Of a stretch of 20,952 nucleotides of DNA, positions 1-20,952 are shown one piece after another. The position numbers were made by a program, and so were the translations under genes. Positions within the stretch are counted from its first letter, which is position 1. Each line of letters starts with the position of its first letter. Origin of the DNA: Chitinispirillales bacterium. Lineage in GTDB: Bacteria > Fibrobacterota > Chitinivibrionia > Chitinivibrionales > Chitinispirillaceae. The stretch spans positions 1 through 20,952 of the forward strand of contig JAIRUL010000119.1 of assembly GCA_031254445.1 (NCBI GenBank), written 5' to 3'. The notes under the pieces are model-generated. The model made no database searches and was not told where the DNA came from. It was given only the letters and a program-made list of their open reading frames with translations.

Positions 1-1252
1 TGATGTTTATGGCGACGTCGTTTATCCTTTTAAGCGCCGCGTAGAGCGTCGAGCTTTTGCCGCTGCCGGTCGGGCCCGTCACTAAGAGGATGCCGTCGGG
101 CTTCTCGATGGTCTCCTCGAACATATCTTTCGTCTTGGGCAGGAACCCCAGCATGTCGATAGAGATGTTCATCGACTGCGGGTCGAGTATTCGCATCACT
201 ATCTTTTCGTTGACGCCGCGCAGGCGCGTCATGACGGGGAACGACGATACGCGCAGGTCAATCTCGCGCCCGGACGCCCTTATCCTGAAGCGTCCGTCCT
301 GGGGCTTGCGTTTCTCGGCGATGTCCATGCCAGCCATGATCTTTAGGCGCGAGGTGATCTGCGCCCGCATCTGCACGGGGATGGGGTTCTGCTCCACGAG
401 GTCGCCGTCTATCCTGTAGCGCAGGCGCGTGTAGTTTTCTAACGGCTCGAGGTGTATGTCGGAGGCGCCGGAGGTGATGGCCTGCGTGACTATGAGGTTC
501 ACGAGCTTGACGACCTGCGCGCCCTCCTCGTCGGAGAGCGAGTCGGACTCCTCCTGCGACTTCACTATTTCGAGGTCGCCGCCCTGCGACGACGAGGCCA
601 CGCTGCTGAGGAGCTGGCTCATCTCCTCGCTCGCCGAGTGGTAGTTCTTCTCGATGGCCGACATGACGCTCTTCTCGGTGGCCAGCACCGGGTCTATTTC
701 GCGGCCCGTTTTGAACTTTAGGTGGTCTATGACGCGCAGGTTCGTGGGGTCGACCATTGCCACGGTGAGGACGCCGTTGCGCTCGAAGAGCGGGATCACC
801 TTGTACCGGCGCGCCATTTCTTCGGGGATGCTCTTTAAGAGGTGCGGCGAGAAGTTGAACTGCTGCAGCACCACGTGCTGTATGTCTAACTGCGCGCTAA
901 GCACGTCGATGAGCTTGGCCTCGCTGATAAAGCCGAGCTTAACGAGGCACGTCCCTAGGAGCGCCTTGCTCGAGCGCTGCTCGGAGAGCCCCTTGTCAAG
1001 CTGCTCTTGGGATATGAACCCCTGCTCGGTGAGAATCTCGCCGATGCGTTTTTTCTGCTGCAGGTGGATCTGCTCGCCCAAAACGGCGGTAAGGTCGTCG
1101 TTAGTAATAAACTTGAACTGCACGAGCGTCGAGCCGAGGCTCATGCCGTTGCGCCGGCACTCGCGCAGCGCGATCAGGAGCTGCTCCTCCGTAATCAGCC
1201 CCTGAGCGAGCAGCACCTCGCCCAGCTTCTTATAACGCTTTTCCGCCATCAT
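1..1252 (-). CDS. GspE/PilB-family secretion or pilus assembly ATPase, 3'-truncated by window edge
   Basis: This is a cytoplasmic ATPase that powers type II secretion or type IV pilus extension; the sequence does not decide between the two. About 417 codons are visible and the C-terminal part lies outside the window. Residues 9-121 hold four 24-residue repeats of the form (R/K/S/L)-(L/I)-G...G/K...L...L..(Q/C), arranged as two pairs with five-residue spacers (9-32/38-61 and 69-92/98-121), matching the MshEN c-di-GMP-binding pattern. A typical T2SSE_N region follows, then the ATPase core with SDIHLEP near residue 275 and a Walker A GPTGSGKS at 393-400. Two ATG codons are adjacent; I took the upstream one (1252). 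The reading frame stays open to base 1. A near-consensus promoter lies just upstream, so it is transcribed separately from the ATPase/DUF4276 pair behind it. Family assignment is firm. Confidence 0.93.
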   Translation of the reverse strand, partial: MMAEKRYKKLGEVLLAQGLITEEQLLIALRECRRNGMSLGSTLVQFKFITNDDLTAVLGEQIHLQQKKRIGEILTEQGFISQEQLDKGLSEQRSSKALLGTCLVKLGFISEAKLIDVLSAQLDIQHVVLQQFNFSPHLLKSIPEEMARRYKVIPLFERNGVLTVAMVDPTNLRVIDHLKFKTGREIDPVLATEKSVMSAIEKNYHSASEEMSQLLSSVASSSQGGDLEIVKSQEESDSLSDEEGAQVVKLVNLIVTQAITSGASDIHLEPLENYTRLRYRIDGDLVEQNPIPVQMRAQITSRLKIMAGMDIAEKRKPQDGRFRIRASGREIDLRVSSFPVMTRLRGVNEKIVMRILDPQSMNISIDMLGFLPKTKDMFEETIEKPDGILLVTGPTGSGKSSTLYAALKRINDVAINI

Positions 1253-1295
1253 AATTAGATTACGCGCGCCCTTTTGAAATAGTCATACCTATGAT

Positions 1296-1324
1296 AATAT
1301 ATATACTGCAAGGCGCAATGTCAA
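1296..1324 (-). promoter_or_regulatory. sigma70-type promoter of the GspE/PilB gene
   Basis: On the minus strand TTGACA (1324-1319) is followed by a 17-bp spacer and TATATT (1301-1296). The predicted transcript starts near 1289, giving a leader of about 37 nt before the ATG at 1252. The -35 is a perfect match and the spacing is optimal. Confidence 0.8.
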
Positions 1325-1405
1325 AAAAAATATTGTTTTTTGGGAGGAAAGGGGGGCGGAGCCGAAAAGCAAGATTTGGTGCTACGGGGGCCTATAACAA
1401 CGATT

Positions 1406-2086
1406 TTAAGCCGGTATGCTCCCGCCGCTTATAAATCCTTTCATATCTTCATAAAACTGGCCGAAGCTAATCGGGCATTGTTTCCTGACTACCTCAACAT
1501 CCATTTTTTCCGCTATATCGGCGCATATTTCCGCAGATGGGAGCATATGAAACTGTTCTAAAACGCGAGAAAGGTATTTTTTAGGGTGGGTATCGGTGCC
1601 TTTACCTCCCCATGTCTCCTCTGGCTTGTTCGGCAATTTGGGACTATCCGGTATTTTTGGAAATGCTCCGGCGTCCGACAATAACCAACTTTCCGTCATG
1701 TGCATCGGCACTATCGCTAAACAAGGCACCCCTTTTTCTTGCGCTGCCGTAAAATATTCAAGCACCTCGTCATATTTTGACTTAAAGCCTTTATTATCCT
1801 CATCGCGGTGGTATACAATATGGAGACAATCTTCTTGTTTCGCCATCTGAGCAAGTTTTATAGCCTTAGCATTTTTTGCATTTTGATATCCCTTGCGGGG
1901 AAGCGTTCCAATGTTTTTTAGATCAGAAGATTTTTTTACAACAAATGATAGATTAGTTCCGGCATCGCCGGCAAGTTTTTTGATAAGGACTTGCATTACC
2001 CCATCCGCATGAAAATATTCGCCGTGACTGCATTCATCGCGCCCGTACTCGGTAACGCCCTCGCCGCATAGCAGGATTTTAATCAT
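1406..2086 (-). CDS. DUF4276 (Toprim-like) protein, partner of the adjacent AAA ATPase
   Basis: This 226-residue protein shows the signature of the DUF4276 family, which is regarded as a divergent Toprim fold. An N-terminal strand runs into GEGVTE with acidic residues E9 and E13, an acidic D-x-D pair sits at D95/D97 (HRDED), and residues 128-138 (MHMTESWLLSD) match the family's conserved E-x-W-L-L-x-D segment. Toprim proteins of this type often act as metal-dependent nucleases paired with SMC/OLD-like ATPases; a nuclease role here is inference. The ATG overlaps the ATPase stop by 8 bases (ATGATTAA), so the pair is translationally coupled, and an AGGGG stands about 7 nt upstream. Base composition is A/T-richer than the flanking genes. 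I see no clear terminator downstream in 1253-1405. Confidence 0.8.
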   Translation of the reverse strand: MIKILLCGEGVTEYGRDECSHGEYFHADGVMQVLIKKLAGDAGTNLSFVVKKSSDLKNIGTLPRKGYQNAKNAKAIKLAQMAKQEDCLHIVYHRDEDNKGFKSKYDEVLEYFTAAQEKGVPCLAIVPMHMTESWLLSDAGAFPKIPDSPKLPNKPEETWGGKGTDTHPKKYLSRVLEQFHMLPSAEICADIAEKMDVEVVRKQCPISFGQFYEDMKGFISGGSIPA

Positions 2087-3287
2087 GCGCCGCCCCTGCG
2101 CCGTCTGCCGTGGAAAGCCTTTTAATGATATCGTCTTTCGTGTAATTTAGCCAAACTTCGCCCGGGTTTAGAAAATCTAATGTCTCCCTCATTTCTTTCG
2201 TTTGGAACAACGGCTTTGCATAAACTTTCCCTTTGGAATCGCGCCACATGAATTGGATACCATGTATATCAGAAAAATTTACCATTACAGGGCTGTGGCT
2301 AGTTATTATAACCTGCTTCCTAAATTTTAACGCCGCCTCTTTAAATTTATTAACAACGCTTTCGGAAAGGCTTGGGTGGATGCCGTCTTCGATTTCATCG
2401 AGCAATATTAAGCCTTTTGTCACACCGCGCTCTACCGGCTTGCTGTCCTGATTTACCAAAATAGCGGAGAACGCAATAATGCGGAGCAGTCCGTCGCTAA
2501 TATAGCGTTTTTTTACTTTTACGCCCTCCTTGCCCCATACTTCTTCTAAATACATTTCTACCCACCCGAACGACCTATTTTTAGCTGTTGTAACTTTCAC
2601 GTCATACCCGACAAACTCAGACACAATTTTGCTAAGGTCATTCTTTTGGGATACGGTCATGCCATGGATAAACGCCGCAAGCCTTTCGCCGCCCATTCCA
2701 ATATCGTTTGCTTGGCCGCGGCTGCCTTTGCTTCGCATCCTATCGGGAGAAAGCAGCTCAAAACTACTAGACGATGTCAGGAACAGCTTTAGCTTAAACA
2801 AAACATCGTCAAAGGGCCCTTTTTCTGAATTTTGCCGATCGGTATTAAGTATCTTTAGCACGGAAGATTGAATGTTAAACGAAGAAAAATTATTGGGGTA
2901 ACCGTCTTCTTTCTCCATTCCAAAAGAAAGGTAGAGTTTGCGCGTATTTTTATCAGCTATACGCTCCCGTACCAACCATTTTTTACCGCCATCGTTGTTG
3001 ATTGAGATTTCCCAAAACAGATTTTTACCATCAATGTCAATTTCGGCCTCAAAGCTTATACTATCATCTTTAGAGGCAAATTGTGACCTAATATCGTCAA
3101 ATTCCCACTCGCGGTCATTAAGATATTCACCTATGTCCCGCGATACGGCCGAGCATAGAAAATCCAGCGCTTGCAAAACGGTGCTTTTGCCGCAAGAGTT
3201 TTCTCCTATCAATATAGTCAGCGGCGTCAACTTAATTGATAAGTTGCTGATAGCTTTGAAGTTTCTTATAGTAAGTTTCGTAATCAA
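2079..3287 (-). CDS. OLD/AAA_21-type ATPase of a two-gene module
   Basis: This is an ABC/SMC-like AAA ATPase of the OLD/AAA_15/AAA_21 group, usually the sensor or motor subunit of phage-defence or DNA-processing modules. From the TTG start it has 402 residues. The N-terminus TKLTIRNFKAISNL is typical of the family, Walker A GENSCGKST is at 28-36, Walker B LILLDEIEDGIHP at 293-305 with catalytic D297/E298, and an H-loop ITSHSP with H331. No Toprim domain is fused; that function seems to lie in the overlapping downstream gene. An ATG in the same frame at 3329 would overlap the end of the ppiD-like gene by 26 bases. I prefer TTG at 3287 because it gives the family's usual N-terminus, has AGGCGG 7 nt upstream and removes the overlap. 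Hand counts of sample 60-base lines give 22-26 G/C here against 40-44 in the ppiD-like gene, suggesting acquisition from elsewhere. Confidence 0.85.
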   Translation of the reverse strand: MITKLTIRNFKAISNLSIKLTPLTILIGENSCGKSTVLQALDFLCSAVSRDIGEYLNDREWEFDDIRSQFASKDDSISFEAEIDIDGKNLFWEISINNDGGKKWLVRERIADKNTRKLYLSFGMEKEDGYPNNFSSFNIQSSVLKILNTDRQNSEKGPFDDVLFKLKLFLTSSSSFELLSPDRMRSKGSRGQANDIGMGGERLAAFIHGMTVSQKNDLSKIVSEFVGYDVKVTTAKNRSFGWVEMYLEEVWGKEGVKVKKRYISDGLLRIIAFSAILVNQDSKPVERGVTKGLILLDEIEDGIHPSLSESVVNKFKEAALKFRKQVIITSHSPVMVNFSDIHGIQFMWRDSKGKVYAKPLFQTKEMRETLDFLNPGEVWLNYTKDDIIKRLSTADGAGAAHD

Positions 3288-3303
3288 AAAGCTGCCGCCT
3301 CCG

Positions 3304-5136
3304 TCAATCCAAATAATACTTATCGACATTGTTGATTATCTTGGCGCGGTTGTGCAGCTCCTTGAACCACTCGCCGTAGGCCGCTTGGCGCCCCTGCGTC
3401 CTTGCCATATCCGCGGCCTGCATCGCCTGCGGGTTGTTATTTAAGTCGAAGGCAGCCGGCGCGTCTTTCTTTATGGTGCGGACTATGCCGTAGCCGTTTT
3501 TCTCCTCTATCAGGCCGGAGACAGCGCCCTCGGGCTGGCTCGCCGCCACCGCGGCGAGCTTTGACGCGGGGCCAAGCTGCGGTATGAAGCCGCCCACCGA
3601 CTGCTCCTCCGCGGCGCCGGCCACGATGTTCCTATCCATCTCCTTTATCTCGTCTAAGGCGGCGCCGCCCTTTACCCTTTCCAGCACTTTCTCGGCGTAC
3701 GCTTTCGCGCCGTTCATAGACATGGAATCTTTGAGCGCCTCTACAATCTGATCGCGCGCCGCCGAGAGCGGCTGCAAGCCTTTCTTCGTCTTCTCCTTGA
3801 TGGCAAGTATATAAAACGCGCTCTCGTTGTCAAGCACGTCGGAGACCTCGCCCGCCTTGCGGCTAAAGGCGAATGTGCCCGCGCCGGAGACGTACCCTAT
3901 TTTGGGGGGCAAGTCGCCCCTCTTGAAGAGCCCTGTCGAGTCGAGCGCGACGGTCGGGTCGCTTGCCGCGCCGTCAACGACGCCTTTGCCGGCCATAGCC
4001 CTTTTAATCTGCTCCGCTTTATCCGAAAGGGCGTCTATCGTCTCGTTTGAGGGGCCGTCCTTTATCAGGATGTGGCGCGCCCTCACCTTGAAATCGCCGC
4101 TGGAATCCGGCTCGCCGCGTTCCTCGAGCTTTATGATGTGGTATCCGAACGCCGTCCTCACCGGGTCGGATATGGCCCCGGGCTCTAAGGCGAACGCCGC
4201 AGCCTCGAACTCCGGCACCATCGCGCCCCTGCCGAACCAGCCTAAGTCCCCGCCGTTTTGGGAGGAGCCCTCGTCGTCCGACTCAAACTCCGCCTCGGCT
4301 TCAAAGGCGCTCTCGCCGGACTCCACTTTCCTCTTGATGTCTATGAGGTTCTGCCTGCTCATCTCTATGTCCTCCGCCGTCGCGGCCTTGGCTATTTTCA
4401 CGAAGTAGAGGTCGGCCTGCTCGTCGCGGCGGAAGAGGCTCTGGTGCGACGCGTAGTAGTCGCTGATCGCCTTGTCGGTGAACGCCGCCGTGTCGCTGCG
4501 GTGATCCTTGCTCATAATCTTGTAGTACTCGAAAGTGGACTTGTTGTTCCTCTGGGCGTACTCGTACTCGGCCTCGGAGGGCGAGACGAAGACGCCGGCC
4601 TTCAGGAGCGCGTCAAGCTTCATCCCGGGCAGTATCTGGCCGCTCACCTGGCGCTCGACCTCGACTAACCAGGGGTACATCCTGTACGTCTGCGGCGTAT
4701 TTAGCCACTGCACGTACTTGGTGGTGTCGAAGCGCCCGTCCGTTTGGAAGACAAACGCGGTGTCAAGCCCGGGGAGCGGGTTGCGCCTCATGTACTCGAA
4801 GACCTCGTTTTCGGACGGCTCAAGCCTCATAGACTTGACCGCCTTGTCCAAGAGAATCCTATTGACCTCCTGATTCCACACCTGCGAGGGCACCATGCGG
4901 TACTGCATGGGCGGCACGTCCCTGCCCCCCTCCTGCATCCTAGCGCGCTCCATGTCCACAAGCCTGACGAAGTGCTGAATCGGAATCTCTGTCCCGTCAA
5001 TCTTGCCGGCGAGAGACCTAGCGCCCCCCTGCCCCATTATGTTCATGCCCCAGTCTAAGAACAGGGTTCCGCCGACAAATGCCACAATGATGACAATCAT
5101 TATCATCGGCGCCATTTCACGCATTTTGCGAATCAT
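3304..5136 (-). CDS. ppiD: PpiD-like membrane-anchored peptidyl-prolyl isomerase/chaperone
   Basis: This 610-residue protein has the PpiD/SurA_N layout: a short basic N-terminus, one membrane segment (about 9-29), a SurA-type helical chaperone region (about 40-235), a parvulin domain (about 240-340) containing NGGDLGWFGRGAM and ending FGYHIIKLEER, then a second parvulin-like region opening with ARHILIK at about 353. The second copy lacks the usual GGxLG core and looks degenerate. Proteins of this type sit in the inner membrane facing the periplasm and help newly exported proteins fold. The ATG has GGAGG 9 nt upstream. The stop is 16 bases before the ATPase start, so that module may be read from the same transcript. 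The upstream gene on this strand is an S41 protease, another envelope quality-control factor. The symbol rests on domain layout, since length and the second domain vary between phyla. Confidence 0.85.
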   Translation of the reverse strand: MIRKMREMAPMIMIVIIVAFVGGTLFLDWGMNIMGQGGARSLAGKIDGTEIPIQHFVRLVDMERARMQEGGRDVPPMQYRMVPSQVWNQEVNRILLDKAVKSMRLEPSENEVFEYMRRNPLPGLDTAFVFQTDGRFDTTKYVQWLNTPQTYRMYPWLVEVERQVSGQILPGMKLDALLKAGVFVSPSEAEYEYAQRNNKSTFEYYKIMSKDHRSDTAAFTDKAISDYYASHQSLFRRDEQADLYFVKIAKAATAEDIEMSRQNLIDIKRKVESGESAFEAEAEFESDDEGSSQNGGDLGWFGRGAMVPEFEAAAFALEPGAISDPVRTAFGYHIIKLEERGEPDSSGDFKVRARHILIKDGPSNETIDALSDKAEQIKRAMAGKGVVDGAASDPTVALDSTGLFKRGDLPPKIGYVSGAGTFAFSRKAGEVSDVLDNESAFYILAIKEKTKKGLQPLSAARDQIVEALKDSMSMNGAKAYAEKVLERVKGGAALDEIKEMDRNIVAGAAEEQSVGGFIPQLGPASKLAAVAASQPEGAVSGLIEEKNGYGIVRTIKKDAPAAFDLNNNPQAMQAADMARTQGRQAAYGEWFKELHNRAKIINNVDKYYLD

Positions 5137-14088: not shown

Positions 14089-15903
14089 ATGATAACGGCG
14101 AGCCCCGGCATCTACGAAACCAACACCGCCGCGCAGGCGCCCGCGGAGAGCGAGCCGCTCTCTTTCGACGAAACGGTCAGGCGCGCGCGGATTTTCTGCG
14201 AGTCGCTGCCGCCCGACTTCGCCCACTGCGCGCGCATGCTCGCGGAGCTGCAGACGCGCCTCTCCAAGGGGCGCCTGCACTTTGCCATCCTCGGCCAGTT
14301 CAACCGCGGCAAGAGCACGTTCATCAACGCGCTCCTGCGGATAAAGGCGCTGCCTACCTCCGTGCTGCCGCTCACTTCCGTCCCCACCATCATAGAATAC
14401 GGCGCTAAACAGACGTGCCGGATACGCTTCCTAGACGGGCTCGAAGACGTCATCGTCGCGGACTCCGCCGCCAAGATAGAGAGCGCCCTGCGGCAGTACG
14501 TCGCCGAGGAGAACAACCCCAAAAACCGCCTTCAGGTAAAGGACGCGACCATCACGTGCCCAAGCGACCTGCTCGCAAACGGAACGGCGCTCATCGACAC
14601 GCCCGGCTTCGGCTCCACGCACCTGCACAACACGCAGACCACGCTCGACCTCTTAGCCGAGTGCGACGCCGCGCTCTTCCTCCTCTCCGCCGACCCGCCC
14701 ATGACCCAGACGGAGATGGAGTTCCTGCGCCAAGTCAAGGAGCGCATCCCGAAACTCTTCTTCATCTTAAACAAGGTCGACCTCCTCTCCGAACCGGAAT
14801 TAGAAGAGGTGGACAGGTTCATCCGCGGCATCCTAAGCCGCGAGCTCGGCTTCGACAGCGGCACGGCCCTATACCGCACCTGCGCGATAAAGGGCGAGCG
14901 CGCCGCAAACGAGGAGATGGCCGACAAGGCGTGGGCGCAGAGCGGGCTTGACGCCGTCAAAAAAGAGGTGCTCGGCTTCATGGTGCGCGAGAAGTACTTC
15001 ACGCTCTCCGAGGCGCTCAGCGGCAAGTACCAAGAGATCATCGCCGGCGTAAGAGAGCGCTTAGAGAAAAAACTGAGCGGCAAGCTCACGCCCATAAACG
15101 CCGCGCAGCAGGAGGTGAGCGCCATCACCGGCGCCATCCAATCGCTGAGCTTAGAGCTCGAGTCGCAAGCCAGGAGGTGCGCCGAGGAGAAGGACGAGCT
15201 GATAGCGAAATTCGACGCGCAAGCGCGGGGCGACGCCGGCGGGCACAGCGCGCTCTCCATGGAAAAAGCCCTAAACGCGATACTGAACGGCAAGTACTTC
15301 CCCGAAGAGGCCGCGAGCATCGCCGCGACCATGCTGCCCAAACACGCCGCGGACGCCGGCGCGCGCCTCTTAGCCTCAATGGTAAACTCCGCAAACAAAT
15401 CCGTGCGAACGCTCGCCCTGCACCACACGCTCGCGCTGGCAAACCTGCAAAAGCGCTACGCGGAGCTCCTCGGCGGCGGCGACGGCAACGGGGCCAAACA
15501 ACAAGAGCCGAGCGCGGAAAAATTTATAGCGCAAATAGAGATAAACACGCCCGACGGCGGCGCAGCCTTCGGAAGCGCGGCGTGGGAGACCCCGCAGCCG
15601 CAGATGATGGACATCTTCAAAAAGAAGTCGGTCCGCTTAGACGCCATAAAAGAATTCTACGGGCCGCTCTGCTCCTCCTGCGTGTCCGCGAACATAGAAA
15701 AGGCCGCCAAAGAGGCGCGGGCGCTGGTAGACGCGGCTTGGGAGAAGATGCTGGCCTCGATCCGGGCTTCTTACCAAGAGATGATCGATACGCTCAGGGG
15801 AATACATAGGCAAAAACAAATGGCGGTCGAGAGGGAGAGGGAGGCGGTTAAGGAGGACGTAGCGTTTCTTAAAAAGAAGATTAAGGAGTGCCCCGGCGGC
15901 TGA
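14089..15903 (+). CDS. bacterial dynamin-like GTPase
   Basis: This is a large GTPase of the dynamin superfamily, 604 residues. The GTPase domain near the N-terminus has G1 GQFNRGKST (69-76), a G2 threonine region TSVLPLTSVPT (90-100), G3 DTPGFGS (170-176) and G4 NKVD (228-231). A long, mostly helical remainder follows, with probable coiled coils near 330-385 and at the C-terminus (about 560-600, basic and glutamate-rich). There is no obvious transmembrane segment, so membrane contact would be peripheral. Bacterial relatives remodel or protect membranes, and some take part in phage defence or vesicle release; the role here is not shown by context. The ATG has no recognisable ribosome-binding site. 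It is a single-gene unit: the stop codon lies in its own terminator and tRNA-fMet follows. Confidence 0.88.
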   Translation: MITASPGIYETNTAAQAPAESEPLSFDETVRRARIFCESLPPDFAHCARMLAELQTRLSKGRLHFAILGQFNRGKSTFINALLRIKALPTSVLPLTSVPTIIEYGAKQTCRIRFLDGLEDVIVADSAAKIESALRQYVAEENNPKNRLQVKDATITCPSDLLANGTALIDTPGFGSTHLHNTQTTLDLLAECDAALFLLSADPPMTQTEMEFLRQVKERIPKLFFILNKVDLLSEPELEEVDRFIRGILSRELGFDSGTALYRTCAIKGERAANEEMADKAWAQSGLDAVKKEVLGFMVREKYFTLSEALSGKYQEIIAGVRERLEKKLSGKLTPINAAQQEVSAITGAIQSLSLELESQARRCAEEKDELIAKFDAQARGDAGGHSALSMEKALNAILNGKYFPEEAASIAATMLPKHAADAGARLLASMVNSANKSVRTLALHHTLALANLQKRYAELLGGGDGNGAKQQEPSAEKFIAQIEINTPDGGAAFGSAAWETPQPQMMDIFKKKSVRLDAIKEFYGPLCSSCVSANIEKAAKEARALVDAAWEKMLASIRASYQEMIDTLRGIHRQKQMAVEREREAVKEDVAFLKKKIKECPGG

Positions 15904-16326: not shown

Positions 16327-19300
16327 ATGCCCGTTTTTGCGCAAACTACCGCCTATACGCGCCCTGCGGCGGCGCGCTTTATGCGCGCGGCGCTTGCCGC
16401 CGCGCTCCTTATCGCGGCCGCGCCGCCCGCGCTCGAAACCTGCGCCGAGGGCGGCGGGCGCAAGCGCCACGCGCCCGAGTCGGAGGAGGGGGCTAAGCCC
16501 CCGTTTACAAGCTATAGGGAAATTCCCGGGGTAACCGAGGGCGAGGCCGCCGCCATCGCGGCGCTGCAGAATAAGTACAAAGACAGCGTCCTCGTCTACG
16601 GGATACTCGAGAGCATAGAGTCTTTCGTCGGGCAAAGCGGCGAGGTCACGGGGTTCGCCGCGCACGTGTGCGCCTATATGTCCACGCTCTTCGGCCTAAG
16701 CATTAAACCCGCCCTCTTAGAGTGGGGCGGCCTGATATCGGGGCTTGAGTCGGGCGCGGTGCTCTTCTCCGGCGACCCGGCGCCCACCGAGAAGCGCAAG
16801 GCGGTTTACCACATGACCTCCGCCATAACCAACCGCGCCATCGTCTACTACAGGCTCGAAGGCAGCGAACCCATATCCAAAATCGCCGCCGAGCGCCCGC
16901 TGCGCTACGGGTTTTTCGAGGGCGCTTCCACGCCCGAGGCGATCCACCAGCTATCGCAGGACGTTTTCGAATCCGCTTTCGCCACCGAGTTCAGCGACGC
17001 AAACGAAATGCTCAAAAGCGGGAAGATAGACGCCTTTTTCGAAGAGTACCCGGCCAAGCCCGTCTTCGACGCTTTCGGCGGCATAACGACCAACATGTTC
17101 CTGCCGCTCATATACGAGCCGGTCTCGCTCTGCACCCAGCTCTCGGATTTCATGCCCATCATCTCCGTCATGGACAAATTCTTGAGCAACGGCGGGCTGA
17201 ATTATTTCGTCAAACTTTACAATGTAGGGCTCGGCGAATACAGCAAGCACAAGATGCTCTCTATGCTGACCGACGAAGAGAAAGCCTACATTAAAAGCAA
17301 CCCGACCGTTGCCTACGCCGCCGAGTACGACAGCTACCCGTCCTCTTTCTACAACGCAAACGAGAAGCAGTGGCAGGGGATATCGCTTGACATCCTGCGC
17401 GAAATAGAGGCGCTCACCGGAATTACATTCAAGATTGCCAATAGCGAACACGCCGCGTTTTCGGAACTTATCGCCATGCTTGAGCGCGGGGAGGTCTCGC
17501 TCATCACCGACCTCGTGCGCACGAAAGAGCGCTTGGGCAGGTTCTTATGGCCGCAGACCACCATACTCCTGAACAGGTACGCGCTCATCTCTAAAGCCGG
17601 CCACCGCAACATCGGCATAAGCGAAGTCCCGAACACAAGCGTGGGCGTGCAAACCGGCACGGCCAACGAGGAGCTCTTTAAGATGTGGTTCCCCGGCCAC
17701 GCAAACGCCTTAGAGTACAAAAGCGCCAACGACCTCTACGACGCCTTAGACCGCGGCGACATAGATATGGCCATGTCGAGCCAAAACGAGGCGCTCGCGG
17801 TGACGAACTACTTAGAGCGCCCGGGGTACAAGGTAAACATCCTCTTCGACCACATCGCCGAATCCTCTTTCGGGTTTAACAAAGACGAGCGCGTGCTGTG
17901 CTCAATCATCGACAAGGCGCTCGGCGAAATAGAGCTCGCGCGCATCACCGACTTGTGGCTGCACAAGACCTACGACTACCGCGTAAAAATAGTGCAGTCG
18001 CGGCAGCCGTTCCTCATAAGCATCTCCGTCCTGCTGATGTGCGTCGTCGGCCTCATGTTCGTCCTGCTAAGGAAAACCCGCAGCACGGAGAAGCGCCTCG
18101 AAGCGCTCGTGGCGGAGCGCACCGTCAAGCTCCAAGACCAGAACAAGTTTATGGAGGCCGTCACCAAAAACTATAAGGGCGTGATATGGTCCGTGGCCGG
18201 GGACGGCTGCATCACGATGTTCAGCGGGCAATACCTCAAAACCATCGGTATCGAATCGTCGTTTCTCGTGGGGAAAAACTTAGACATCGCGCGGCAGAAG
18301 AATAGGCACTTAGACATCATAAGCAATGTGCAAAAGACGTTCAGCGAGGGCCCGCAAGACTGGATGAGCGTGCTTGACGGGCGCACATTCCACACCAACA
18401 CGATGCCCATATACGACGCCGACGGGAAAGTGGTAGGCGTTACCGGCACCACCGACGACATAACCGAAATGGTGAAGCTGAGCCAAGATCTCGAGGCGGC
18501 GCTTGAGGCGGCCAAGAGCGCGAACCGCGCGAAGTCGGCGTTTTTGGCCAACATGAGCCACGAGATACGGACGCCCATGAACAGCATCGTCGGGTTCTCG
18601 GAACTCGCGCTAGACTACGACCTCCCCGAGGAGCCGGCTGAATATTTGTGCAAGATAATGGAAAACTCTACGTGGCTCTTGCAAATAATAAACGACATAC
18701 TAGACGTCTCTAAGATAGAGGCGGGCAAGATGACGCTTGAAAACATCCCGTTCGACCTGCACGAGATGTTCGCGCTCTGCCGCACCGCGACCATGCCGAA
18801 AGCCATGGAGAAAGGGCTGCTCCTGCACTTCTACGCGGAGCCGTTCATCGGCAAGAGGCTCATCGGCGACCAGACGAGGCTTAGGCAGGTGTTCATCAAC
18901 CTCATCTCCAACGCGGTGAAGTTCACAAACATCGGCACGGTAAAGGTCTCGGCCACCATCCTATCGACAGGCGAAGAGGCCATAACCATGCACTTCGAGG
19001 TAAAAGACTCAGGCATCGGCATGACGCCGGAGGAGATGGAGAAAGTGCTCGAACCTTTCGCGCAGGCCGACTACAGCACCACGCGCAAGTACGGCGGCAC
19101 GGGGCTTGGGCTCTCCATCATCAAGAGCATAGTGGATCTCATGGGCGGCGAGCTCTACGTGGAGAGCACCCCCGGCATAGGCAGCAAGTTCAGCTTCGAC
19201 CTCAAGTTCCAAACGATTGACATAAGCGAGGACGACGGCGACGCGCCGGGGCTGTCTCTGAACGACATAGAGAAACCGGCGTTCGAGGGGGAGGTGCTAG

Positions 19301-20247
19301 CCTGCGAAGACAACTCCATGAACCAAGAGGTGATACGCAAGCACCTAGAAAGGGTCGGCCTGCGGCTTGCCGTGGCGGACAACGGCAAGGCGGGCGTAGA
19401 CATAGTTAGGAACCGCGCGGAGAACGGCGAAAGGCCGTTCGACCTGATATTCATGGACATAAACATGCCCATCATGGACGGGCTTGAGGCCGCGGCGCAG
19501 ATATTAGGCATGGGCGTGAAAACCCCCATCGTGGCCATGACCGCCAACGTGATGACAAACGAAAAAGAACTCTACGAAAAGAGCGGCATGCACGACTGCG
19601 TGGGCAAACCCTTTACATCGCAGGAACTGTGGCGCTGCCTGCTCAAGTACCTAAAGCCCACAAACAAGCCAACAAGCGGCGATGCCCCGCAAATCTACGA
19701 CAACGATTTGCTCTTAGAGATGCGCACTATATTCGTAAACGACAATCAGCACAAGTTTAAGGAATTTCAAGGCGCTTTGTCAGGCGGCGACATCCAGAAA
19801 GCGCACAGGATCGCGCACACGCTCAAAAGCAACGCCGGGACAATAGGCAAGCCCGCGCTGCAAGCCGCCGCCGCCGATGCGGAATTTTTCCTGAAAGACG
19901 GAAAAAACGCGCTCGCGCCCAAGCACGTTAGCGCCTTAGAAAAGGAACTTAGCGCGGCGCTTGAAGAGCTCGAACCGCTGCGCGCAAAGGAGCGCGGCAA
20001 CCCCCAAGGCGCAAGCGCCAAGACAGCGCCCCTATCTTCGGCGGCGGAAAACGAGCCTATCGAGTGGATGAACGAACTTGCGTCGCAGTTGCAACGCGGG
20101 AGCCCAAACTGCATGAAGCACAAGGACGCCCTCCGCAAAATCCAAGGCGCCGAAAAACTTATCAAGCAGATGGACGACTTCGATTTCGACGACGCGTTCA
20201 AAACATTCTCCGCCATAAGAGAAAAAATGGAGAGGCGCAATGGATGA
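16327..20247 (+). CDS. hybrid sensor histidine kinase with two periplasmic solute-binding-like domains, PAS, REC and HPt
   Basis: This 1306-residue membrane kinase holds a whole phosphorelay. In order: an export signal (hydrophobic segment about 19-36; a start at M19 is possible), a first divergent periplasmic binding-protein-like domain (about 60-310), a clearer SBP_bac_3 domain (about 320-555), a membrane segment (561-582), a PAS domain (about 610-710), a helical linker, HisKA with H745 in MSHEIRTPMNS, an HK ATPase domain (N862 of the N box, DSGIGM at 894-899, GGTGLGLS from 923), a receiver domain with D1044 in FMDINMP, and an HPt domain with H1164 in AHTLKSNAG. SBP_bac_3 domains usually bind amino acids or similar solutes, so a small soluble ligand is likely sensed. 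GAGG lies 8 nt before the ATG. The end overlaps the next gene by 8 bases, so the diguanylate cyclase is a natural output partner. Confidence 0.93.
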   Translation: MPVFAQTTAYTRPAAARFMRAALAAALLIAAAPPALETCAEGGGRKRHAPESEEGAKPPFTSYREIPGVTEGEAAAIAALQNKYKDSVLVYGILESIESFVGQSGEVTGFAAHVCAYMSTLFGLSIKPALLEWGGLISGLESGAVLFSGDPAPTEKRKAVYHMTSAITNRAIVYYRLEGSEPISKIAAERPLRYGFFEGASTPEAIHQLSQDVFESAFATEFSDANEMLKSGKIDAFFEEYPAKPVFDAFGGITTNMFLPLIYEPVSLCTQLSDFMPIISVMDKFLSNGGLNYFVKLYNVGLGEYSKHKMLSMLTDEEKAYIKSNPTVAYAAEYDSYPSSFYNANEKQWQGISLDILREIEALTGITFKIANSEHAAFSELIAMLERGEVSLITDLVRTKERLGRFLWPQTTILLNRYALISKAGHRNIGISEVPNTSVGVQTGTANEELFKMWFPGHANALEYKSANDLYDALDRGDIDMAMSSQNEALAVTNYLERPGYKVNILFDHIAESSFGFNKDERVLCSIIDKALGEIELARITDLWLHKTYDYRVKIVQSRQPFLISISVLLMCVVGLMFVLLRKTRSTEKRLEALVAERTVKLQDQNKFMEAVTKNYKGVIWSVAGDGCITMFSGQYLKTIGIESSFLVGKNLDIARQKNRHLDIISNVQKTFSEGPQDWMSVLDGRTFHTNTMPIYDADGKVVGVTGTTDDITEMVKLSQDLEAALEAAKSANRAKSAFLANMSHEIRTPMNSIVGFSELALDYDLPEEPAEYLCKIMENSTWLLQIINDILDVSKIEAGKMTLENIPFDLHEMFALCRTATMPKAMEKGLLLHFYAEPFIGKRLIGDQTRLRQVFINLISNAVKFTNIGTVKVSATILSTGEEAITMHFEVKDSGIGMTPEEMEKVLEPFAQADYSTTRKYGGTGLGLSIIKSIVDLMGGELYVESTPGIGSKFSFDLKFQTIDISEDDGDAPGLSLNDIEKPAFEGEVLACEDNSMNQEVIRKHLERVGLRLAVADNGKAGVDIVRNRAENGERPFDLIFMDINMPIMDGLEAAAQILGMGVKTPIVAMTANVMTNEKELYEKSGMHDCVGKPFTSQELWRCLLKYLKPTNKPTSGDAPQIYDNDLLLEMRTIFVNDNQHKFKEFQGALSGGDIQKAHRIAHTLKSNAGTIGKPALQAAAADAEFFLKDGKNALAPKHVSALEKELSAALEELEPLRAKERGNPQGASAKTAPLSSAAENEPIEWMNELASQLQRGSPNCMKHKDALRKIQGAEKLIKQMDDFDFDDAFKTFSAIREKMERRNG

Positions 20248-20952
20248 AATCGTCAAAAACAGCATTCTAATCGTAGACGACGAGAAAACCAACTTAATGA
20301 TACTGACCCGCATACTCGGCGAGAAGTACAACATATTCGCCGCAAAGGACGGGGCTTACGCCATCAAAAAGGCCGCGGAGCTTAAGCCCGACCTAATCAT
20401 GTTAGACATCGTCATGCCCGGCATGAGCGGGTACGAAGTGCTGGCCGCGCTGAAAAAACAAGACGCCACGCGCGAGATACCCGTCATATTCATAACCGGC
20501 CTAACCTCGGCGGAGGAGGAGGAAAAAGCGCTCTCCCTAAGCGCCGTAGACTACATAAACAAACCGTTTAGGCCAAACATCGTGATGCTTAGGGTGCGCA
20601 ACCAGATACGCAACATAAACCAGATACGCACCATAGAACGCCTGAGCATGATAGACCAATTGACCGAAATCGCCAACCGGCGCAGCTTCGACAACCGCCT
20701 AAACCAAGAGTGGCGCAGGGCCATCCGCGAAAAGACGCCGATAAGCCTGCTCATGCTCGACATCGACAAGTTCAAAACCTACAACGACACCTACGGGCAC
20801 CTGCAGGGCGACATAATCCTCCGCGCCGTGGCAAAAGAGATAGAGCGCTCCCTCAAACGCCCCGCCGACTTCGCGGCAAGATGGGGCGGCGAAGAGTTCG
20901 CCGCGCTCTTAGGCAACACCGACGCCCCCGGCGCGCTGAAAGTGGCGGAGCG
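20240..20952 (+). CDS. REC-GGDEF response regulator (diguanylate cyclase), 3'-truncated by window edge
   Basis: A PleD/WspR-like response regulator that makes c-di-GMP from GTP; about 237 residues are visible. The N-terminal receiver (about 8-125) has acidic D13/D14, phospho-acceptor D56 in MLDIVMPGMSG and a conserved lysine in YINKPF. The GGDEF domain follows with D-Q-L-T-E-I-A-N-R-R, LMLDIDKFKTYNDTYGH and an active-site GGEEF at 216-220. An RxxD inhibitory site (RPAD, 207-210) precedes GGEEF by exactly five residues, so product feedback inhibition is expected. The ATG overlaps the kinase gene's end by 8 bases in another frame (translational coupling); a second ATG four bases on is out of frame. 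Activation by phosphate from the kinase's HPt domain is inferred from gene order. Confidence 0.93.
   Translation, partial: MDEIVKNSILIVDDEKTNLMILTRILGEKYNIFAAKDGAYAIKKAAELKPDLIMLDIVMPGMSGYEVLAALKKQDATREIPVIFITGLTSAEEEEKALSLSAVDYINKPFRPNIVMLRVRNQIRNINQIRTIERLSMIDQLTEIANRRSFDNRLNQEWRRAIREKTPISLLMLDIDKFKTYNDTYGHLQGDIILRAVAKEIERSLKRPADFAARWGGEEFAALLGNTDAPGALKVAE

Follow-up and report, generated by a model that had tools for sequence, protein, structure and literature searches.

A probable two-subunit immune cassette of an OLD/Smc-type ATPase and a Toprim-like DUF4276 protein between ppiD and pilB of a Chitinispirillales bacterium

Introduction

In a 20,952-nucleotide stretch of DNA from a Chitinispirillales bacterium (contig JAIRUL010000119.1 of assembly GCA_031254445.1; the whole stretch is hereafter called the window), two overlapping genes, coding for an ATPase and a DUF4276 protein, stand between the chaperone gene ppiD and the pilB/gspE gene, which raises the question of what such a pair does and how it came to be there. 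An earlier note, made from the sequence of the window alone, had suggested a split, OLD-like defence module. We consider it quite probable that the pair is a self-contained immune cassette of two subunits, acquired by horizontal transfer and made up of a short OLD/Smc-type ABC ATPase and a separate, Toprim-like DUF4276 nuclease. This reading is preferred because of the ATP site of the one protein and the acidic, Toprim-type site of the other, the constant pairing of the two genes, their patchy distribution and foreign composition, and the presence of related pairs in viral contigs. Most likely, the pair would protect its host from phages much as known split ATPase-nuclease defences do.

Results

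The ATPase

The larger protein scored 101 bits with Pfam AAA_21, and all the hallmarks of an OLD-type ABC ATPase, namely Walker A, the signature, Walker B with its glutamate, and the H-loop, were found in it (Table 1). Among the PADLOC models, PDC-M25A was the best match (262 bits, E 1.9e-78) and HEC-01A the next (120 bits), while the AriA models (99-107 bits) and AbiLi (75 bits) were also matched. PDC-M25A was likewise the best PADLOC model for the related ATPases of Treponema (L114), Clostridium hydrogenum (L115), Methylorubrum thiocyanatum (L116) and a viral contig (L127). A structure model of the ATPase matched the heads of Smc, Rad50 and PtuA. On these grounds, the protein is, as judged from its sequence and predicted fold, an OLD/Smc-type ABC ATPase with an intact ATP site. 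The earlier note had listed the Walker A, Walker B and H-loop motifs, the GEGVTE, D-x-D and ESWLLSD motifs of the partner, and an 8-base overlap of the two genes; all were indeed present in the open reading frames (ORFs), the motifs being conserved in 48 aligned ATPases and 41 aligned DUF4276 proteins, and its assignment of the ATPase to the OLD type was upheld.

The structural match to Smc and Rad50 heads would also suit a housekeeping module of DNA repair or of the replication fork, in which a RecF-RecR-like ABC ATPase works with a Toprim-like protein; the ATPase also matched recf and recN (36 bits each, both far under the cut-offs) and SMC_N (43 bits). However, the patchy occurrence, foreign composition and remnants of the pair, together with the lack of a match in seven of seven genomes of the same genus, speak against an essential role, which makes this explanation decidedly unlikely.

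The DUF4276 protein

The smaller protein was assigned to DUF4276 by Pfam with 41 bits (cut-off 30). A glutamate after strand 1 and a DxD after strand 3 are the places of the Toprim metal ligands, and E9 and D95-x-D97 occupy these very positions on the predicted order of secondary structure elements. A narrow DUF4276 profile (A1) gave no signal against the OLD Toprim domain; the signal appeared with a deeper alignment, the profile of which matched the OLD Toprim at an hhalign probability of 74-86%, far above all shuffle nulls, and placed E9 and D95-x-D97 onto the metal ligands of OLD. DUF4435, which is the family of AriB, served as control; its profile scored at a like level, and DUF4276 scored above it. 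It is to be noted that this comparison drew on 17 OLD loci out of 30, the majority of these 17 being near-identical, and on 11 of 13 DUF4435 loci, and that three loci with internal stops (L185, L188 and L189, of the 25 surveyed below) were excluded from the deep alignment, though kept in the pairing count. The conservation of E9, D95 and E132 and the alignment of E9 and the DxD to the OLD metal ligands indicate a catalytic acidic site, and the profile-profile comparison with its controls supports the Toprim-like nature that the earlier note had ascribed to the partner. Sequence searches of the PDB with the DUF4276 protein, as single sequence and as profile, returned nothing convincing, and no PHROGs family was found for it.

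The alternative to be weighed here is that DUF4276 has a Rossmann-like fold and serves as an adaptor or sensor without catalytic activity, the ATPase itself being the effector. Whole-fold searches with the DUF4276 model (Foldseek and VIA-align against the PDB; viral models) gave generic Rossmann-like matches, which speak neither for nor against a Toprim fold; a predicted fold other than Toprim, which the earlier note had named as a refutation, is thus not established. Position 97 is not uniform, being D in 23, Y in 8 and E in 3 of 34 diverse members. In contrast, E9 is kept in 32 of these 34 members and both D95 and E132 in all, and the glutamate and the DxD align with the OLD metal ligands well above the null; an adaptor is thus unlikely. 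As a separate observation, the sub-branch comprising L177-L184 carries D-x-Y in place of D-x-D (e.g., VDYYGF) while keeping E9, D95 and E132.

Pairing of the two genes

When 385 genomes of the Methylorubrum host's class were surveyed separately with the Pfam model, 18 of them yielded 25 DUF4276 loci. Every one of the 25, including three in which DUF4276 has internal stops, has an ABC ATPase (A2 ATPase profile, E <=3e-7) immediately 5' in the same orientation. The ATPase was also 5' at eight of eight other non-remnant loci (L114, L115, L116, L117, L118, L119, L121, which has one internal stop, and L122). Thus, DUF4276 is constantly paired with the ATPase. The distances within the two families were correlated over 20 pairs, 15 of which were matched solely by the equal length of the longest contig (r 0.77, 0 of 5000 permutations), and remained so when the three remotest pairs were left out (r 0.46, again 0 of 5000). 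Some genomes hold several such loci: four separate ones were seen in G1014 (L181, L195, L198 and L200), three of them within ~7.5 kb, and five in G1092 (L190, L196, L197, L199 and L201).

Composition and expression

The G+C content is 0.43 in the ATPase gene and 0.44 in the DUF4276 gene, compared to 0.58-0.66 in the 12 other window genes measured, and at third codon positions it is 0.47 and 0.42, compared to 0.73-0.88. When codon fit was scored with those same 12 genes as the reference set, both genes of the pair were negative and each of the 12 was positive. The pair is foreign by composition.

The TTG at 3287 was taken as the start of the ATPase because its homologs begin there, their starts aligning to the same residue; a GGAGG lies 10 nucleotides upstream. 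An alternative, longer frame with an ATG start reaches 3329 and overlaps the end of ppiD. No minus-strand promoter-like site was found upstream of the ATPase start in the scanned stretch 1000-3700, and the pair is therefore likely transcribed by read-through from ppiD, with which it would form a probable operon. The pilB/gspE gene has a box of its own, with 11 of 12 matches to a sigma-70-like promoter, and a similar box was seen by eye at the same position before pilB in two genomes of the same genus.

The juxtaposition of these genes could, in principle, be an artefact of assembly or binning, as the bin consists of 301 contigs and is 70% complete, contains a second ppiD, and ppiD was not followed by pilB in the relatives read. 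Nonetheless, identities to same-genus genomes reach 72% for the flanking ppiD and 90% for the flanking pilB; the ppiD stop codon, the Shine-Dalgarno sequence and the ATPase start join seamlessly; and the pair recurs in other genomes regardless of this locus, leaving an artefact highly improbable. The second ppiD (L072, on contig C43 of the same genome) is 77% identical over residues 214-610, has other genes behind it, and possibly belongs to a contaminating sister species.

Distribution and mobility

Among 167 genomes of the phylum, including its own, a strong match was found in the genome of the window only, and distant DUF4276 loci in three others; all seven same-genus genomes were without a match. 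At none of 20 ppiD loci, namely those of 19 relatives and the second ppiD of the bin, was ppiD followed by the pair or by pilB (E 1e-8), the visible downstream sequence being limited to 694-1479 nucleotides in three of the 20. In the relatives, pilB matches sit on contigs other than that of ppiD, and the gene upstream of pilB varies (PilM-like in L086, radical-SAM in L085). Of 195 genomes in the Treponema host's family, seven matched, the host included; four of these hold remnants (L123, L124, L125 and L126) in which DUF4276 is broken or partial, one of them keeping a piece of the ATPase. Such remnants suggest repeated gain and loss. Of 391 genomes in the Clostridium host's class, the host itself was the one match. 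These three tallies were made with the A1 profile, to which the Pfam-type DUF4276 branch is invisible, just as the genome of the Methylorubrum L116 gene is to the Pfam model; each tally thus counts its own branch only.

The pair occupies unrelated genomic places in Treponema, Clostridium and Methylorubrum. In Treponema it is A/T-richer than its surroundings (G+C 0.36 and 0.43 vs. 0.47-0.60 in most flanking ORFs), as it is in Methylorubrum (0.49 vs. 0.63-0.71 in nearly all flanking ORFs); the Clostridium pair is not A/T-richer than its flanks, that genome being itself A/T-rich. A search of the flanks in the window found no repeats or transposon end framing the cassette. Overall, the results support, at the level of sequence, a horizontal arrival of the pair and its behavior as a mobile cassette. 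This agrees with the earlier note, which had seen the A/T-richness, placed the pair between ppiD and a separately promoted pilB/gspE, and proposed arrival by transfer and use of ppiD transcription; it had named the presence of the pair at this locus with ordinary composition in all relatives as a refutation, and none of the relatives examined carried the pair there.

Two side observations belong here. Near the Clostridium pair (L115:7437-12566), two genes were recognized by eye, one of them long, helicase-like and phospholipase-D-like at its N-terminus, the other NUDIX-like, and the region is a possible defence island. OLD-like Toprim proteins were found in 102 of the 167 genomes of the phylum, the window's own genome and all seven of the same genus being without a listed match.

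Related pairs in viral contigs

A search with the ATPase profile gave 19 loci in viral contigs, of which five were read for ORFs and all 19 were scanned with the A1 profile. In L127/L128 and L129, the gene of a diverged ATPase shares 4 nucleotides with a DUF4276-like gene. The L127 pair scored 463 bits with PDC-M25A and 269 bits with PDC-M25B; the L129 pair is flanked by antitermination protein Q and a holin, and its ATPase, being listed as two separate ORFs, may be broken. The partners in these contigs are invisible to A1, and Pfam gave no match for that of L127, and that of L129 stayed below the cut-off with 18 bits. The DUF4276 protein of the window, when searched directly in phage records, plasmid records and viral contigs, had no match. 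In another viral-contig relative of the ATPase (L130:3995-4891), the middle is shortened, and no DUF4276-like gene was seen behind it. The context is one expected of an anti-phage defence system, in that the pair is patchy and horizontally moved and has relatives in a prophage-like setting.

The same anatomy would serve a toxin-antitoxin-like module, or one that maintains a mobile element, in which the nuclease poisons and the ATPase restrains it, phage defence being a side effect at most. Pfam describes AAA_21 as a putative AbiEii toxin of a type IV toxin-antitoxin system, one AriA entry in the PDB is named 'AriA antitoxin', and the remnants in the relatives of Treponema fit loss of a module once it is unneeded. 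However, no relative was found in plasmid records at E 1e-5, and in one viral contig, the place of a diverged pair between genes for late regulation and for lysis is better explained by defence against rival phages. We consider such a module unlikely and hold to the immune cassette.

Other features of the window

The gene order on the minus strand is ctp (S41 peptidase), ppiD, ATPase, DUF4276 and pilB/gspE. Elsewhere in the window, a dynamin-family bacterial GTPase is encoded at 14089-15903 (Dynamin_N, 93 bits), and positions 16327-20950 hold a hybrid histidine kinase that combines periplasmic binding, receiver and Hpt domains; the next gene, overlapping with it, codes for a response regulator that is diguanylate cyclase-like by eye (GGEEF).

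Table 1 Features of the ATPase-DUF4276 locus and its flanks (residues of the ATPase are counted from the TTG start)
Feature	Position	Strand	Remarks
ATPase gene	2079..3287	minus	OLD/Smc-type ABC ATPase (AAA_21/AAA_15; PADLOC PDC-M25A), 402 residues from TTG start
DUF4276 gene	1406..2086	minus	226 residues, Toprim-like putative nuclease (PADLOC: weak PDC-M25B, then HEC-01B)
Overlap of ATPase end and DUF4276 start	2079..2086	minus	8 nucleotides, ATGATTAA
Walker A GENSCGKST, residues 28-36	3180..3206	minus	G28, N30, G33, K34 invariant; S35, T36 nearly so (48 aligned ATPases)
ABC-signature-like SDGLLR, residues 264-269	2481..2498	minus	S264, G266, R269 invariant (48 aligned ATPases)
Walker B D297-E298	2394..2399	minus	Both invariant (48 aligned ATPases)
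H-loop H331 (TSHSP)	2295..2297	minus	Invariant (48 aligned ATPases)
E9, putative Toprim metal-binding Glu after strand 1	2060..2062	minus	Invariant in 41 aligned; 32/34 diverse; aligns to OLD Glu
D95-E-D97, putative Toprim DxD after strand 3	1796..1804	minus	Conserved in 41 aligned; D95 34/34 diverse
E132 of ESWLLSD, invariant fourth acid	1691..1693	minus	Conserved in 41 aligned; 34/34 diverse
GGAGG, probable ribosome-binding site of ATPase	3298..3302	minus	Directly behind ppiD stop codon (3304-3306)
ppiD (PPIC-type/SurA_N chaperone), upstream of ATPase	3304..5136	minus	ORF and domain matches
Sigma-70-like promoter of pilB/gspE, separating it from the pair	1296..1324	minus	TTGACA-17-TATATT
pilB/gspE (T2SSE, MshEN)	2..1252	minus	Cut by window end; outside cassette

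Discussion

Proposed mechanism and significance

In the proposed mechanism, dimers of the ATPase would bind the DUF4276 protein and hold it inactive until a trigger borne by the phage alters the nucleotide state and thereby licenses the nuclease. The latter (E9, D95 and D97, with E132) would then cut with a divalent metal, either DNA, as do OLD and GajA, or tRNA, as does AriB, and the cut would halt the infection, the cell itself probably being sacrificed (abortive). At the present locus, expression would probably be secured by read-through from ppiD along with translational coupling.

A broader reading can be put forward, though tentatively and as somewhat short of an even chance: the whole DUF4276 family may consist of Toprim-like effectors working solely with OLD-type ABC ATPases, making up, next to PARIS, a large class of split OLD systems that has a four-acid site of its own (E9, D95, D97 and E132), where the extra invariant glutamate and the D-x-Y sub-branch would point to a chemistry or target of the cut, e.g., RNA, unlike those of OLD and GajA. 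These results offer a putative function and active-site map for the domain DUF4276, and tie a PADLOC candidate, apparently unpublished, to the logic of split OLD and PARIS systems. Moreover, the cassette is small, has diverged relatives in viral contigs, and its nuclease target (DNA or tRNA) should be directly readable.

Comparison with known systems

Septu has an HNH protein as the effector partner, and in this respect Septu and the retron PtuA-PtuB differ from the window pair, the partner of which is Toprim-like DUF4276. AbiL (AbiLi/AbiLii) is a two-gene system of ATPase and effector with an RloB-like partner; the AbiLi model does match the window ATPase, as given above, whereas the window partner is without a listed AbiLii match.

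Among the closest systems are the PADLOC candidates PDC-M25 and HEC-01, 'PDC' standing for phage defence candidate in a passage of PMC11514479. Their two-gene order is identical to that of the window, the ATPase is clearly PDC-M25A, and the best model of the partner is PDC-M25B, followed by HEC-01B. On the other hand, the partner matches weakly (39 bits, E 1.8e-10, and 31 bits with HEC-01B), compared to 269 and 339 bits in the viral-contig pairs. The Treponema partner, 52% identical to that of the window, matched HEC-01B models only (PADLOC, E 1e-5), the Clostridium partner matched PDC-M25B and HEC-01B about equally, and the Methylorubrum partner matched PDC-M25B better; by these scores, the window partner is placed as a diverged branch between PDC-M25B and HEC-01B. 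No mention of DUF4276, PF14103 or PDC-M25 was found in the literature searched, and the ABC-ATPase classification of Krishnan et al. (2020) may mention DUF4276.

Classes 1-3 of the OLD family, with Gabija GajA in class 2, are outlined in PMC10568477. The window pair shares with these classes the ABC ATPase superfamily and, in its partner, the Toprim-type Glu and DxD, but carries the ATPase and the Toprim-like part on separate chains, and its neighbors are ppiD and pilB, with no adjoining helicase or reverse transcriptase. Identity with Gabija, which has a fused Toprim and an adjoining GajB helicase, was accordingly rejected.

PARIS is the nearest characterized kind. According to portions of the respective papers, it represents Class 4 OLD, with ATPase (AriA) and Toprim (AriB) as separate genes (PMC12796447), and AriB is a Toprim tRNase (PMC12409363). 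Here, too, an OLD-type ABC ATPase gene adjoins that of a separate, putative Toprim nuclease, and the DUF4435 and DUF4276 profiles are of like score against the OLD Toprim. The ATPase nonetheless scored far lower with the AriA models than with PDC-M25A, the direct profile match between DUF4276 and DUF4435 reached only 2-5% probability, no DUF4435 match was found in the window partner (E up to 1) or in 41 members (E up to 10), and AriB was absent from the eight PADLOC matches of the partner. Identity with PARIS, which calls for an AriB-type partner, was rejected, as the partner is DUF4276 and not DUF4435.

Overall, the pair belongs to an already known kind, the split ATPase-Toprim defence, and pairs like it are already PADLOC candidates. 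The earlier note was correct in what it observed and for the most part in the kind that it proposed. According to a recent survey, nucleases of the Toprim, HNH, PD-(D/E)XK and PIN types accompany OLD-ABC ATPases, those with Toprim being attributed to previous work on ABC ATPases (PMC12839542). The view of OLD-type ATPases with interchangeable nucleases, which is in print there, is extended by the present pair and not overturned.
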